The notes under the pieces were generated by a model. That model did not search any database. It saw only the letters and a program-made list of their open reading frames with translations, and was not told where the DNA came from. This document shows, one piece after another, positions 58,094-64,000 of a stretch of 64,000 nucleotides of DNA (position 1 is the stretch's first letter; every line of letters starts with the position of its first letter). A program made the translations under genes and the position numbers. This DNA is from Sphingobacteriaceae bacterium (lineage in GTDB: Bacteria > Bacteroidota > Bacteroidia > B-17B0 > Aurantibacillaceae): positions 2,356,001 through 2,420,000 of the forward strand of contig NVQB01000001.1 in NCBI GenBank assembly GCA_002319075.1, written 5' to 3'.

Positions 58094-58531
58094 CTAATTC
58101 ATTTTAAACGGAGGAATTTTACCGTCTTTCATTAATTGTAAACTTTTCTTTTTATGTTCTTCAAAATTTCCGAAAGCCAGAGCATCCAGCATTTCCTGGC
58201 GACTCATGTCGGGATTATTAAAATTTTTGCGAATCTCATCTGAACAACGGTCCACATATTTTTCAAATTTCATTGGCGCCCAAACGTATTCTTTTTTTAC
58301 GGCGTCTTTCTTAAATGCAAATTCTTTAGGAAGATCTCCTTCAATTTTAGATTTAATGTCCAAACCTTCGTAGGTTTTTGGCAACTGACGGTTGTCAAAC
58401 AAGAATGGCTTACTCACCATAATTACATGTTTTTTACGTTTTGGATCTATCATCGACAGACCTTCAATGCGTAATCCTTTTTTCTTGAGGAGTCCGTATT
58501 TAGATTCAAAGTGTTTTAGGATTTCAAACAT
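58094..58531 (-). CDS. Small basic cytoplasmic protein, unknown function
   Basis: 145 residues from the ATG at 58531; a TTG at 58552 would add seven residues. No signal peptide or membrane helix. Lys-rich with segments such as GLSMIDPKRKKHVIMVSKPF and a C-terminal DALAFGNFEEHKKKSLQLM. I do not recognise the family. Stand-alone gene between two terminator/regulatory regions; a 10-bp inverted repeat lies just upstream. It precedes, in the direction of the chromosome, an ECF sigma/protease pair on the same strand but 209 bases away. Confidence 0.7.
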   Translation of the reverse strand: MFEILKHFESKYGLLKKKGLRIEGLSMIDPKRKKHVIMVSKPFLFDNRQLPKTYEGLDIKSKIEGDLPKEFAFKKDAVKKEYVWAPMKFEKYVDRCSDEIRKNFNNPDMSRQEMLDALAFGNFEEHKKKSLQLMKDGKIPPFKMN

Positions 58532-58550
58532 GAGAGCAGTAGTTTTAGGC

Positions 58551-58586
58551 AACTAAGTTAACTATTAAATTGTTAATAACTTAGTT
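58551..58586. promoter_or_regulatory. Inverted repeat upstream of the unknown gene
   Basis: Perfect 10-bp arms AACTAAGTTA (58551-58560) and TAACTTAGTT (58577-58586) with a 16-base spacer, 20-55 bases upstream of the ATG at 58531. Possible operator or leader hairpin. Confidence 0.45.
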
Positions 58587-58740: not shown

Positions 58741-59832
58741 CTAGTCTTTTTTGTAAACCAAAACATTAAAAACATATGGGTTTATCCTTTTAACCTGTTC
58801 AGAACGCTTCAGTTTTTTTAAACTGCCTTTTTTGCCATTCTGACTCAATAAATCTTGTTTTGTACTGTCTATATCACAAGATTTAATGGAATTTAAGATC
58901 TCTTTAGCTTTGATAGCAAAACCTGTGGCCTCAGCACCAGAAATTTTCCCACGAATTACGCCTATAATAGTACCATTTTCATCCAAAAGCGGGCCCCCAC
59001 TGTTACCAGGATTAACCGGAATAGAAATTTGATACATATTAGTATCGTTAGAATAGCCGCTTAAAGAACTTAAAGAGCCTTCTCCATAAACCATTTCATT
59101 GCGGGGATAGCCTAAAGTAAAAACTTTCTCACCGACATCGGTACTTTTTTCATTTAAGCTAAAAGGTACCTGCCAGTTTTTATAAAGGTCTTTGTTATCA
59201 ACCTTTATAACAGCAAGATCTAATTTCGGATCAAAGAATACTAAGGTTGTAAGCGCTCTTTCAGTAGAAGCATTTCTTATAAAGATACTATCGGCGCCTT
59301 TAATCATATGATAACTGGTGAGGATATACCCTTTATTATTTAAAGCAAACGCACTGCCTTCAAGATTCGCAGGTACATACGGCTTTTTATTATTGGTATT
59401 TTTAAGACCCTCTACAATACCATCAGTAGAAGCTTTTACTTCACTCACTTTGCGGTTAAGCTCTGTGAGTTCGTTGCTTTGTTTAGTGATGAATAAACCA
59501 CCTGTGCTTAAAGCCGCCACGGTGCTCAAAACCGCAATAAAAGCAGTACTTGCAGCCACTACTATAGTGCGGCCGTGACGTTTTGCAAAATTTTCTTCCC
59601 TGTTAATTGAAATGATTTTCGAGTTTCCGAATTCTTTTTCGTGAATAGCTTTTAGTTTATTTTTAAACTCAACGCGTGAGGCATGTTTTTTCAATGAGTC
59701 AACCAGCGCTTTGTGTTCATTAAATGCGTTGGCCATAATGCTGTCGGTATTCAATAAATTTTCAAAGCCTGCTCTATCTTCAGCACTCATACTTCCATTC
59801 AGGTAATTGTCAAATAAATCACTAACTCTCAT
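58741..59832 (-). CDS. Membrane anti-sigma-like protein fused to a trypsin-like serine protease
   Basis: 363 residues. N-terminal cytoplasmic segment (about 1-85) resembles anti-sigma N-domains (MRVSDLFDNYLNGSMSAEDR, then FENLLNTDSIMANAFNEH). One transmembrane helix spans about 90-112. A short coiled-coil linker (about 118-145) leads to a periplasmic S1C/trypsin-like protease domain with the catalytic triad His175 (LTSYHMI), Asp205 (KLDLAVI) and Ser278 (NPGNSGGP). There is no C-terminal PDZ domain, unlike DegP. It is 15 bases downstream of an ECF sigma factor, so the pair is probably a sigma/anti-sigma unit (inference). Confidence 0.85.
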   Translation of the reverse strand: MRVSDLFDNYLNGSMSAEDRAGFENLLNTDSIMANAFNEHKALVDSLKKHASRVEFKNKLKAIHEKEFGNSKIISINREENFAKRHGRTIVVAASTAFIAVLSTVAALSTGGLFITKQSNELTELNRKVSEVKASTDGIVEGLKNTNNKKPYVPANLEGSAFALNNKGYILTSYHMIKGADSIFIRNASTERALTTLVFFDPKLDLAVIKVDNKDLYKNWQVPFSLNEKSTDVGEKVFTLGYPRNEMVYGEGSLSSLSGYSNDTNMYQISIPVNPGNSGGPLLDENGTIIGVIRGKISGAEATGFAIKAKEILNSIKSCDIDSTKQDLLSQNGKKGSLKKLKRSEQVKRINPYVFNVLVYKKD

Positions 59833-59847
59833 AATTTTCTTTCCCCT

Positions 59848-60435
59848 TTATTCTTGTTCAATAATTGCTTTATCAAAAAAATATTTCTTTAATCGTTGTA
59901 AACATTTGTACTTCTGGTTTTTTGCATTATCGGCATTTGTATAGCCAAACTTTTCAGCAATTTCATCCATATTCATTCTATGCACGTAGAAGTCCTTTAT
60001 CAGTGTGGCGCAAGGTTCTCCAAGTTCTGCCAGACTTTTATTCATTTTTTCAATTTCCAGTTCTTTGGCGGTGTGCTCGTTTAAATCTGTGCTCACATCT
60101 ACCACTTCATTCTCGTCGTCTTCTTTAAATAAAAATGTTTTGCCATTTTTTTTAAGTTGCTTTAACCAAAGACGCTTTGAAACAGAATATATGTAGGTCT
60201 GTAGCTGACAATTTAACTCAAACTCTGGCTTTTGCGCGTTTTCGTAAAGCACAATAACTGTCTCCTGGTAAATGTCCTTAGCTGCTTCTTCCGTGCCGCT
60301 GTTGTTTACAATAAATTTAAGAACGATGTTATAATACTTCTTATATAAGGCACTAAGCACTTCACTGTTGCCGCTGCGCAAACCATCAATAAATTGATCA
60401 TCGGTAAACTGCGGTTTGGTTCTGGACATAGACAC
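59848..60435 (-). CDS. ECF-type RNA polymerase sigma factor
   Basis: 195 residues (starting at 60435 or 60429). Region 2 lies at about 20-90 (LSALYKKYYNIVLKFIVNNS, then AAKDIYQETVIVLYENA) and region 4 at about 130-190 (GEPCATLIKDFYVHRMNMDEIAEKFGY, quoted from residues about 136-162). The region 4 helix-turn-helix EIAEKFGYTNADNAKNQK is typical of the ECF group. No transmembrane segment. It is followed by the anti-sigma/protease fusion. A near-consensus TACCTTTA box upstream lacks the last G. Confidence 0.93.
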   Translation of the reverse strand: MSMSRTKPQFTDDQFIDGLRSGNSEVLSALYKKYYNIVLKFIVNNSGTEEAAKDIYQETVIVLYENAQKPEFELNCQLQTYIYSVSKRLWLKQLKKNGKTFLFKEDDENEVVDVSTDLNEHTAKELEIEKMNKSLAELGEPCATLIKDFYVHRMNMDEIAEKFGYTNADNAKNQKYKCLQRLKKYFFDKAIIEQE

Positions 60436-60736
60436 CTTGTTTAGATTAATACTTTGTTTTGATAAAGGTAACCTGTTTTTAACAAATAATTTATTCTAGA
60501 TTTTTTTCCAAAGATCCGATACCTATCGGATTGGCAGATTGCACTCATTAGTTTTTGTAAAGATAAGAGCCTTAACTGGGTCAAATATAGCAGGTAACCT
60601 CCAATTGCAATAAATTTAAGACTTTGATTACCAGTTAATTATGAATTATTCTTAATTTTCGTTCTTTTTTTGGGTTACCATTTTCAAATTCTGGTATAAA
60701 TGTAAAATTAACAATCAATTTAAAACTAAAACCAAA
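60436..60736. other. Divergent intergenic region with a CCGATA palindrome
   Basis: About 300 bases between the ECF gene and the first small lipoprotein. Contents seen: a TACCTTTA near-promoter for the sigma gene and the palindrome at 60514-60531. No RNA gene was recognised. Confidence 0.5.
60514..60531. repeat. CCGATA palindrome, fourth copy
   Basis: ATCCGATA-CC-TATCGGAT, 8-bp arms, sharing the central CCGATA-NN-TATCGG with the other three copies but with different outer bases. Confidence 0.7.
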
Positions 60737-60999: not shown

Positions 61000-61036
61000 G
61001 CCTCAAAGTTTTTACTTTGGGGCTTTTCTGTTTTTT
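61000..61036 (+). terminator. Terminator after the first small lipoprotein
   Basis: A 10-bp stem (GCCTCAAAGT with ACTTTGGGGC, one G-T wobble), a four-T loop and a T-rich tail. Its 3' arm overlaps the -33 element of the next promoter. Confidence 0.82.
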
Positions 61037-62448: not shown

Positions 62449-63111
62449 CTATTGTTCGAATGTAAACTCTGAAATTAAAGAGTATTCATATCCAGAATTG
62501 TCGGAAGTATTTTTTTCTGAGGTCAAAACAATTTTCTTGTTTCTGAGTTCCTTAATAGTGTAAGTTAAGTCGGTGCTGCTTCCCTTAGAAAATGTTGAAT
62601 ATCCGCCTCCAACATATCCGCCTCCACCAATTGGATTCAAGTATTGACTAACATACGAATCGAGGTGTATAACAATTTGCTCCTTATTTTTATGAGTACC
62701 TATTCCTGCAGTAAAATTCCATGTTCCTTTTTGGGTAATTCTGCTTTGATTATCTGTGATCATTTCTGAAAAAAATTCTCCATTTTTTTTGAACTCCATA
62801 GTATAAGAGACTGATCCCGTGTAATTATCTGAGAAAGCATTTCCTGCGGAGTCACTGTAAGTGGTTGTACTGGAATAGCGAGCGTCAGTGTAACTGGTAG
62901 AAATACTATTTGCCGAAGCGTTATTTCCTGTAGAAGAAGTATTATAGTTTTCAGTACCGCTTTTTATCTTCCATTCTCCTACAACCCTTGCCTTACGTGT
63001 TCTCAAAGATAACAAAGGATCATCTTCACCTTTTTTGCAGTTTGTAAATAATTGACAGAGAAGTAAAGTTATAAATGCAAAATTTAGTATTTTCATAGTC
63101 TTTGGGTTCAA
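62449..63111 (-). CDS. Lipoprotein of a tandem family (copy 1)
   Basis: 220 residues. Lipoprotein signal ending LFTNCKKG. A conserved block (EDDPLLSLRTRKARVVGEWK) follows, then a variable Ser/Thr/Asn/Tyr-rich region (about 50-105), MEFKKNGEFFSEM and a GTWNFTAGIGTHKNKEQIVI block. The C terminus ends ISEFTFEQ. The pattern resembles lipocalin-like domains of Bacteroidota lipoproteins. It is one of three tandem paralogues. Function unknown. Confidence 0.83.
   Translation of the reverse strand: MNPKTMKILNFAFITLLLCQLFTNCKKGEDDPLLSLRTRKARVVGEWKIKSGTENYNTSSTGNNASANSISTSYTDARYSSTTTYSDSAGNAFSDNYTGSVSYTMEFKKNGEFFSEMITDNQSRITQKGTWNFTAGIGTHKNKEQIVIHLDSYVSQYLNPIGGGGYVGGGYSTFSKGSSTDLTYTIKELRNKKIVLTSEKNTSDNSGYEYSLISEFTFEQ
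62969..63039. repeat. 71-bp repeat shared by two lipoprotein genes, copy A
   Basis: Identical to 63575-63645 except at two positions, including third-codon sites. It covers the segment encoding the lipidation site and the conserved EDDPLLSLRTRKARVVG block. Confidence 0.9.
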
Positions 63112-63177
63112 TTATAATGCTTGTGTAGTAAAATATTGCAGGGAAATTCCCTCGGGTAACTTATAAAGAGCTTAAAA

Positions 63178-63705
63178 TTATTGTTCGAAAGTAAACTCTT
63201 CGTTAAAGCCATTTGCATTATACTGGTATCCTCTGACCAGCACGAGCTTTTTCGCTCTTAGTTCCTTAATGTTATAAACAATGTCTGAGGGGAAAATGAC
63301 ACGAGAATCATGAAGCAAGATTTCTTCCTTATTTTTTTTCCCACCAATTCCTCCGGTAAAATTCCAAGTACCTACAATACCATGTCTGTCGTTGTATTCT
63401 AGCTGACGAGACTCATTTACCTCACCATTTTTTTTAAATTCTATAAAATAGAATATGTCTCCTTTTTCTGTTTGATTAGACCCTGTATATTTTTGTATAT
63501 ATTCATTCCTCGTATATTCAGTCGTGGTAGTCCACGACGGAAAACTAACAGTTGTTTTTAGACCACTTACGAGTTTCCATTTTCCTACAACCCTTGCCTT
63601 TCGTGTTCTCAAAGATAACAAAGGATCATCTTCACCTTTTTTGCATTCGGTGAAACAAAGACTTAATAAAAGTAGAACTGACAAATAGATTTTTTGGGAT
63701 TTCAT
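63178..63705 (-). CDS. Lipoprotein of a tandem family (copy 2)
   Basis: 175 residues. Lipoprotein signal ending LCFTECKKG and the same EDDPLLSLRTRKARVVG block. The middle is shorter than in copy 1 and different in sequence, but FIEFKKNGEVNES, GTWNFTGGIGGKKNKEEILL and NIKELRAKKLVL, ending EEFTFEQ, align with it. The separation from copy 1 is 66 bases. Probably outer-membrane anchored; function unknown. Confidence 0.82.
   Translation of the reverse strand: MKSQKIYLSVLLLLSLCFTECKKGEDDPLLSLRTRKARVVGKWKLVSGLKTTVSFPSWTTTTEYTRNEYIQKYTGSNQTEKGDIFYFIEFKKNGEVNESRQLEYNDRHGIVGTWNFTGGIGGKKNKEEILLHDSRVIFPSDIVYNIKELRAKKLVLVRGYQYNANGFNEEFTFEQ
63575..63645. repeat. 71-bp repeat shared by two lipoprotein genes, copy B
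   Basis: Partner of 62969-63039; 69 of 71 bases identical by eye, in the same orientation. Confidence 0.9.
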
Positions 63706-63741
63706 AAGAAGTTGAATAGGGGACGAAACTACACATTTATT

Positions 63742-64000
63742 TTATTGTTCGAATGTAAATTCTTCTGAGTAAGTAAAATTAGTATTGATATTAGAATTTC
63801 TGCAGAGTACAAGTTTTTTATTTCTTAATTCTTTAATGGAATAAACAACTTCCCTATTTACACTTGTTTGAGGATCGACAATTACGAGTTGCTCCTTGTT
63901 TTTCAACTTTCCAACCCCACCCGTAAAATTCCACGTTCCGCTCATGGTATAAGAACCTGCAGATGCCAAAAGATTTTGGATATCTACAGCGCCGTTCTTA
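63742..64000 (-). CDS. Lipoprotein of a tandem family (copy 3), partial
   Basis: Only the C-terminal part is in the window; the frame stays open to the window end, with KNGAVDIQNLLAS upstream of the first candidate start. GTWNFTGGVGKLKNKEQLVI, SIKELRNKKLVL and the ending EEFTFEQ align with copies 1 and 2. The 5' end, where the lipobox should be, lies beyond position 64000. Confidence 0.8.
   Translation of the reverse strand, partial: KNGAVDIQNLLASAGSYTMSGTWNFTGGVGKLKNKEQLVIVDPQTSVNREVVYSIKELRNKKLVLCRNSNINTNFTYSEEFTFEQ

Follow-up and report, generated by a model that had tools for sequence, protein, structure and literature searches.

In the sigma-E/RseA/DegS/RseP system of E. coli, an autoregulated ECF sigma factor with an envelope-rich regulon is paired with a membrane anti-sigma factor that has a single transmembrane helix, and the anti-sigma factor and the HtrA-type periplasmic protease, DegS, are separate proteins. 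DegS acts as a trimer, its PDZ domain reads the C termini of outer-membrane proteins, and RseB modulates the system. Related proteases are anchored or equipped differently: MarP has a multi-helix anchor, HtrA has a PDZ domain, and neither has an anti-sigma domain. The FecR-type anti-sigma factors of the Bacteroidota have a helical N terminus encoded after an ECF gene, one transmembrane helix and a periplasmic sensor part. The dual membrane-spanning Bacteroidota anti-sigma factors (Dma), which are paired with ECF21 sigma factors, carry an outer-membrane beta-barrel end (PMC13088901), and their existence indicates that Bacteroidota do join anti-sigma domains to unusual outer parts. Clostridial RsgI is an anti-sigma factor whose polypeptide itself contributes to the proteolytic steps ahead of RseP (PMC12203970). 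Class I anti-sigma domains, according to one survey, adjoin only 6% of Bacteroidetes ECFs (PMC7406223).

The locus described here lies in a 64-kb window (the whole stretch of 64,000 nucleotides that was analysed) of a Sphingobacteriaceae genome, and comprises an ECF sigma factor gene followed after a gap of 15 bases, on the same strand, by a gene for a fusion protein that combines a putative anti-sigma domain and a protease (Table 1). An earlier note had claimed this gene order, along with an anti-sigma-like N terminus, one transmembrane helix and a periplasmic trypsin-like domain with an intact triad and no PDZ domain. Coordinates and strand were confirmed, and the description of the protein is borne out by the evidence set out below. 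The sigma protein matches Sigma70_r2 (3.3e-7) and the sigma70-ECF profile TIGR02937 (2e-17 over residues 27-185). Its profile match and length agree with an ECF sigma factor, for which regions 2 and 4 only and ~160-200 amino acids are expected; the Pfam profile search returned no match to a region 4 model. Homology among relatives begins at residue 3, the internal ATG, which makes this a likelier start than the upstream GTG.

Set beside the sigma-E system, the locus offers an ECF sigma factor with predicted autoregulation, a membrane anti-sigma protein with one transmembrane helix, a periplasmic protease whose best structural match is of HtrA type, an RseP-like protease encoded elsewhere in the genome and an envelope-rich predicted regulon. 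What E. coli keeps as two proteins is, however, one chain here, there is no PDZ domain and no RseB-like neighbour was noticed; by analogy, the system appears to resemble the RseA-DegS part of the pathway joined in a single polypeptide. The likeness to FecR-type proteins extends to the helical N terminus, the membrane helix and a weak profile similarity, but the periplasmic part is a protease rather than a FecR domain (no match to which was found in the fusion protein with Pfam) and no TonB-dependent receptor gene is adjacent. Like the Dma proteins, the fusion is a single chain beside an ECF gene with an anti-sigma domain, a transmembrane helix, a linker and an unusual outer domain, though its chain ends in a protease and not in a beta-barrel. 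Involvement of the anti-sigma chain itself in proteolysis before RseP, as proposed here, recalls RsgI, whose self-cleavage is not known to use a trypsin-like protease domain. With the MarP/HtrA family the protein shares its protease fold and profile, the anti-sigma domain being found only here.

Table 1. Features of the sigma/fusion locus and the genes facing it (positions in the window)
Feature	Position	Strand	Remarks
Fusion protein gene, 363 aa	58741..59832	-	Anti-sigma domain, transmembrane helix, linker, HtrA/DegS-like protease, conserved C-terminal tail
C-terminal helix and strand, residues 341-363	58744..58812	-	Strongly conserved LKRSEQ.KRINPYVFNVLVYK; related tail in protease-only relatives
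Chymotrypsin-fold protease domain, residues 158-318	58879..59361	-	Triad H175/D205/S278; no PDZ
Periplasmic linker, residues ~113-157	59362..59496	-	Heptad-spaced L/V/I; low confidence in model; putative cleavage region
Single transmembrane helix, residues ~90-112	59497..59565	-	Conserved small residues A93, A94
Putative anti-sigma domain, residues 1-68	59629..59832	-	Helices 3-12, 17-29, 31-68; AlphaFold pLDDT ~90; no cysteine
ECF sigma factor gene	59848..60435	-	Sigma70_r2 and sigma70-ECF profiles; 195 aa from GTG 60435, likelier 193 aa from ATG 60429
Predicted sigma promoter of operon, GGTTACC-N14-GTATTAA	60446..60473	-	16 bases upstream of ATG 60429
Predicted divergent promoter of same type, GGGTTACC-N14-GTATAAA	60672..60700	+
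Tiny lipoprotein, 77 aa	60737..60970	+	Lipobox ..FVAC; predicted target facing divergent site
Second tiny lipoprotein, 74 aa	61076..61300	+	Similar N terminus; terminator-like hairpin between both lipoprotein genes

The N terminus of the fusion protein is very probably an anti-sigma domain, as fold, profile and paralogue comparisons suggest. AlphaFold, run on 39 relatives, predicted its three helices (3-12, 17-29 and 31-68) with confidence, and a Foldseek search against 350,542 PDB chains returned seven matches in total, all seven of them anti-sigma factors (RslA, RskA and RsiW), albeit weak ones with E-values of 1.2-7. The family matched by most members of the domain is the NCBIfam family 'antisigma' (14 of the 39; best 0.0017), whilst no curated Pfam family was matched by residues 1-90 of the window protein and a PDB sequence search with the domain gave no anti-sigma match. 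An N-terminal three-helix domain encoded beside a sigma gene is the hallmark of class I anti-sigma proteins, which the fusion displays, if with weak fold matches; the HxxxCxxC motif of the zinc-binding class I subset is absent, there being no cysteine in residues 1-90.

The strongest evidence comes from the same genome, in which 30 sigma-like genes were examined for downstream anti-sigma-like proteins. The two closest paralogues of the sigma factor (146 and 91 bits) each have a downstream neighbour whose N terminus matches the domain profile (1.1e-12 and 7e-5) and which lacks a protease. In one of these proteins the domain leads into a membrane helix and a cytochrome-c domain; the second, of 87 amino acids, consists of the domain alone. 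Because these N termini are homologous and stand beside sigma paralogues, the domain can be taken as common to sigma partners and joined to a protease only here within this genome. The cytochrome-c protein, encoded beside the closest paralogue (L059, sigma gene near C1:3489300), is possibly a redox-sensing anti-sigma factor. FecR anti-sigma proteins of the genome match the domain profile weakly (1e-4 and 1e-3). The domain is shortened in Spirosoma and its neighbours, which lack the first two anti-sigma helices and retain no more than the segment around L60-H64, so that the mode of sigma binding may differ there. These shortened loci (L100-L102, L105 and L106 in Spirosoma, L098 in Fibrivirga) keep the gene pair, the divergent promoter and the triad, and most keep the sigma site.

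A single hydrophobic helix, preceded by basic residues, begins near residue 90 in homologues, in agreement with the single transmembrane helix that had been described. The linker beyond it is 40-50 amino acids long in most relatives, which would be long enough sterically to reach an active site, and it displays no clearly invariant cleavage site among them. Heptad-like spacing of L122, L125, V129, V132, I139 and L143 in the window protein may point to oligomerisation. Residues 158-291 match Trypsin_2 in Pfam (2.5e-22), and the NCBIfam matches are to the MarP (8.4e-26) and Do (7.9e-24) families, all below curated cut-offs. The full-length model is a confident chymotrypsin fold with its best structural and sequence matches to DegS, DegP/MucD, Deg1 and HtrA. 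The protein thus has the chymotrypsin-fold domain and His-Asp-Ser triad of the HtrA/DegS group, but not its C-terminal PDZ domain: no PDZ family was matched in Pfam and the chain ends instead in a short helix-strand tail. His175, Asp205 and Ser278 are identical in all 110 relatives, as are N274, G276 and G279 of the oxyanion loop, and this invariance argues that the protease is used; it is very likely both active as an enzyme and required for function. Conservation of the last 20 residues nearly equals that of the active site. Since a related tail is shared by protease-only relatives (L072-L075), which have neither an anti-sigma part nor a neighbouring sigma match, it would seem to belong to a PDZ-less protease subfamily rather than to signalling specifically.

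The earlier note had asked whether the fusion is conserved beside ECF genes in other Bacteroidota, and the answer is clearly positive. All 37 genus genomes examined have the fusion, nearly always at full length, with 43-77% identity in the 36 relatives, and in most of these genomes it follows the sigma gene at a distance of -4 to ~+17 bases, a start/stop overlap (-4) being found in many relatives. Scanning named genomes with the sigma alignment gave 80 loci, some of them genus genomes again. One (L103) ends at a contig edge and was left out of the adjacency count; in the 79 loci with a continuing contig, the next gene after sigma was the same fusion in every case. The hosts include Pedobacter, Mucilaginibacter, Sphingobacterium, Parapedobacter, Daejeonella, Spirosoma, Larkinella, Pontibacter, Rufibacter and Chitinophagaceae. 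The fusion is therefore conserved across several families and is no single-genome oddity. Surrounding genes vary between lineages whilst the pair, kept in ~110 loci, stays constant, and its conservation is far above chance. Among these neighbours are a 152 amino acid conserved gene with no Pfam family (58094-58552 in the window), found after the fusion gene in several named genus loci, and a peroxiredoxin-like gene, in either orientation, in 19 loci of Pedobacter, Sphingobacterium and Parapedobacter (L107, L112, L113, L116, L124, L127 and others). The latter was considered as a regulon target and rejected, there being no motif site before it. In an even sample of the phylum (296 genomes), a strong match to the fusion was found in 26, confined to a few families, and most of these matches span near full length or the transmembrane helix plus protease. 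The system thus looks to be a trait of some Bacteroidota lineages rather than universal in the phylum. On the sequence evidence, sigma and fusion almost certainly form a conserved ECF/anti-sigma module.

Of 109 loci, 97 have the motif GGGTTACC-N14-GTATTAA upstream of the sigma gene, at a nearly constant spacing (15 bases after GGTTAC in 93 sites, 16 in 11), which is strong grounds for predicting that the sigma factor controls its own type of promoter. A position matrix built from these sites picks out two strong matches in the window, at 60443 on the minus strand (32.8) and 60669 on the plus strand (26.0); the next match scores 6.7 and the best in 60 shuffles 18.6. With a matrix from other families only, the same two sites come top, the sigma site then scoring 12.9, below the best shuffle (18.0). 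Strict sites number 24 in ten genomes of other genera against one for a reversed-pattern control, and 82 against 27 in the genus genomes. The strict pattern is not enriched when the genome of the window is itself searched by pattern (four against seven in the control), which leaves, outside the known sites, either a very small regulon or a degenerate motif. The argument for the promoter draws on where the sites lie, how they are spaced, their conservation across families and what their targets are. Some single motif sites that face unrelated or no clear genes may be due to chance.

Most of the motif's targets are predicted envelope proteins. A lipoprotein close in size to the first one of the window lies behind a divergent site in 54 of the 77 named loci, and in Pedobacter these lipoproteins often occur as two or three tandem copies, each with a site of its own. 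In the window, the two tiny lipoproteins divergent from the sigma operon begin alike after the lipobox (CGPSAE.. and CGPAAE..); control of the second is uncertain because the terminator-like hairpin (~61000-61030) separates it from the first. The motif also stands before the gene for a DUF4349 lipoprotein, both in the same genome outside the window (L185, G000:C1:2751164-2751191) and in about a dozen genus relatives, with the start mostly 17-20 bases past the motif in the genus, as well as in three genomes of other genera (two Pedobacter, one Parapedobacter). The N terminus of the L185 lipoprotein (CGPSREEKEYLEKSA) resembles those of the window's tiny lipoproteins. Further sites precede a gene for a protein with the sequence NGVHTD, possibly DUF2459-like, in two lineages, and a coiled-coil-like lipoprotein gene in three genus genomes. 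The sequence evidence for the regulon is strong, since sites recur independently before the same genes, and autoregulation together with a lipoprotein regulon is highly probable. Elsewhere in the window (62449-63999, minus strand), three tandem related lipoprotein-like genes (KKGEDDPLLSLRTRKARVVG..) are apparently duplicates.

Taken as a whole, the explanation that we favour, and consider moderately probable, is that the locus encodes a sigma/anti-sigma system for envelope stress, with the anti-sigma factor and a site-1-type protease resembling DegS combined in one polypeptide. At rest, the cytoplasmic residues 1-68 of the membrane protein would sequester the sigma factor. Envelope disturbance would switch on the periplasmic protease domain; as this domain has no PDZ, sensing must reside in the domain itself, the tail, the linker or the oligomeric state. 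The protease would then cut the juxtamembrane linker of its own chain or of a neighbouring copy, and such cleavage is a plausible, if still tentative, trigger. An RseP-like metalloprotease could complete the cleavage inside the membrane, a second step that we regard as possible and put forward more cautiously. Once freed, the sigma factor would transcribe its own operon, a positive feedback that would also make more of the brake, and the divergent tiny lipoproteins and the DUF4349 lipoprotein from GGGTTACC-N14-GTATTAA promoters. The fuller proposal, which we advance tentatively, is of one-component regulated intramembrane proteolysis: the anti-sigma factor's own site-1 protease might cut its own or a sister linker on envelope stress and free sigma, without peptide sensing by a PDZ domain, the lipoprotein regulon being conserved across several Bacteroidota families. 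Sensor, protease and anti-sigma factor in one chain, as the earlier note had suggested, is consistent with all of these findings.

Other explanations deserve consideration. Rather than acting as a site-1 protease, the periplasmic domain could be a sensor or effector, in which the binding or processing of misfolded proteins shifts its shape or oligomeric state, this change then passing along the linker and the membrane helix to weaken the hold on sigma; alternatively, the first cut could be made by another protease. Such a role would fit the coiled-coil-like appearance of the linker and the cytochrome-c domain carried by a same-domain anti-sigma protein of this genome, which implies that the periplasmic part may generally be a sensor; the genome also encodes a DegP-like protease and a further HtrA, which are candidates for the separate protease. 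We nevertheless consider it rather unlikely, as a triad and oxyanion-loop glycines that are invariant in 110 of 110 relatives exceed the needs of a binding scaffold (pseudoproteases usually lose the triad) and no other clear membrane-anchored DegS homologue that could make the first cut was found in pattern searches of the genome.

Less probable again is that the protease works in quality control, as a housekeeping or stress-output enzyme whose amount the fusion merely ties to the sigma factor, brake and enzyme being co-induced. The predicted autoregulation would indeed raise protease levels on induction, much as E. coli sigma-E raises DegP, but output enzymes need no fusion to a brake, and the fact that several families all retain the fusion, with no exception, amid changing neighbours points to a signalling role. 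That the N terminus is a generic membrane anchor or scaffold, adjacent to sigma for co-regulation only, seems very improbable: although this would account for the lack of curated Pfam and PDB sequence matches noted above, the domain is homologous to proteins encoded after the nearest sigma paralogues, its fold matches are solely to anti-sigma factors and the start and stop of the sigma and fusion genes overlap (-4) in many relatives.

No published account of an anti-sigma/trypsin-like fusion, of a link between DUF4349 and a sigma factor or of the motif was found in the open-licence literature, an absence that is no proof of novelty; the 2021 ECF reclassification could already list the group. 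The fusion system is apparently undescribed, and the earlier note mentioned neither the promoter motif nor the divergent lipoproteins nor the wider regulon.

Envelope stress sensing is poorly charted in Bacteroidota outside gut Bacteroides. The module supplies a sigma factor, a brake, a protease, a promoter and a short target list, which are testable in culturable Pedobacter, Spirosoma and Pontibacter, and, for DUF4349 lipoproteins as well as for a class of tiny ones, it gives a first clue to how they are regulated. Should the fused protease prove to be the trigger, several proteins that elsewhere act in a cascade would have been condensed into one chain, and how a signal is recognised without a PDZ domain would become a concrete question. 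In these lineages, the module hints at a compact and partly self-contained envelope-stress sensor.
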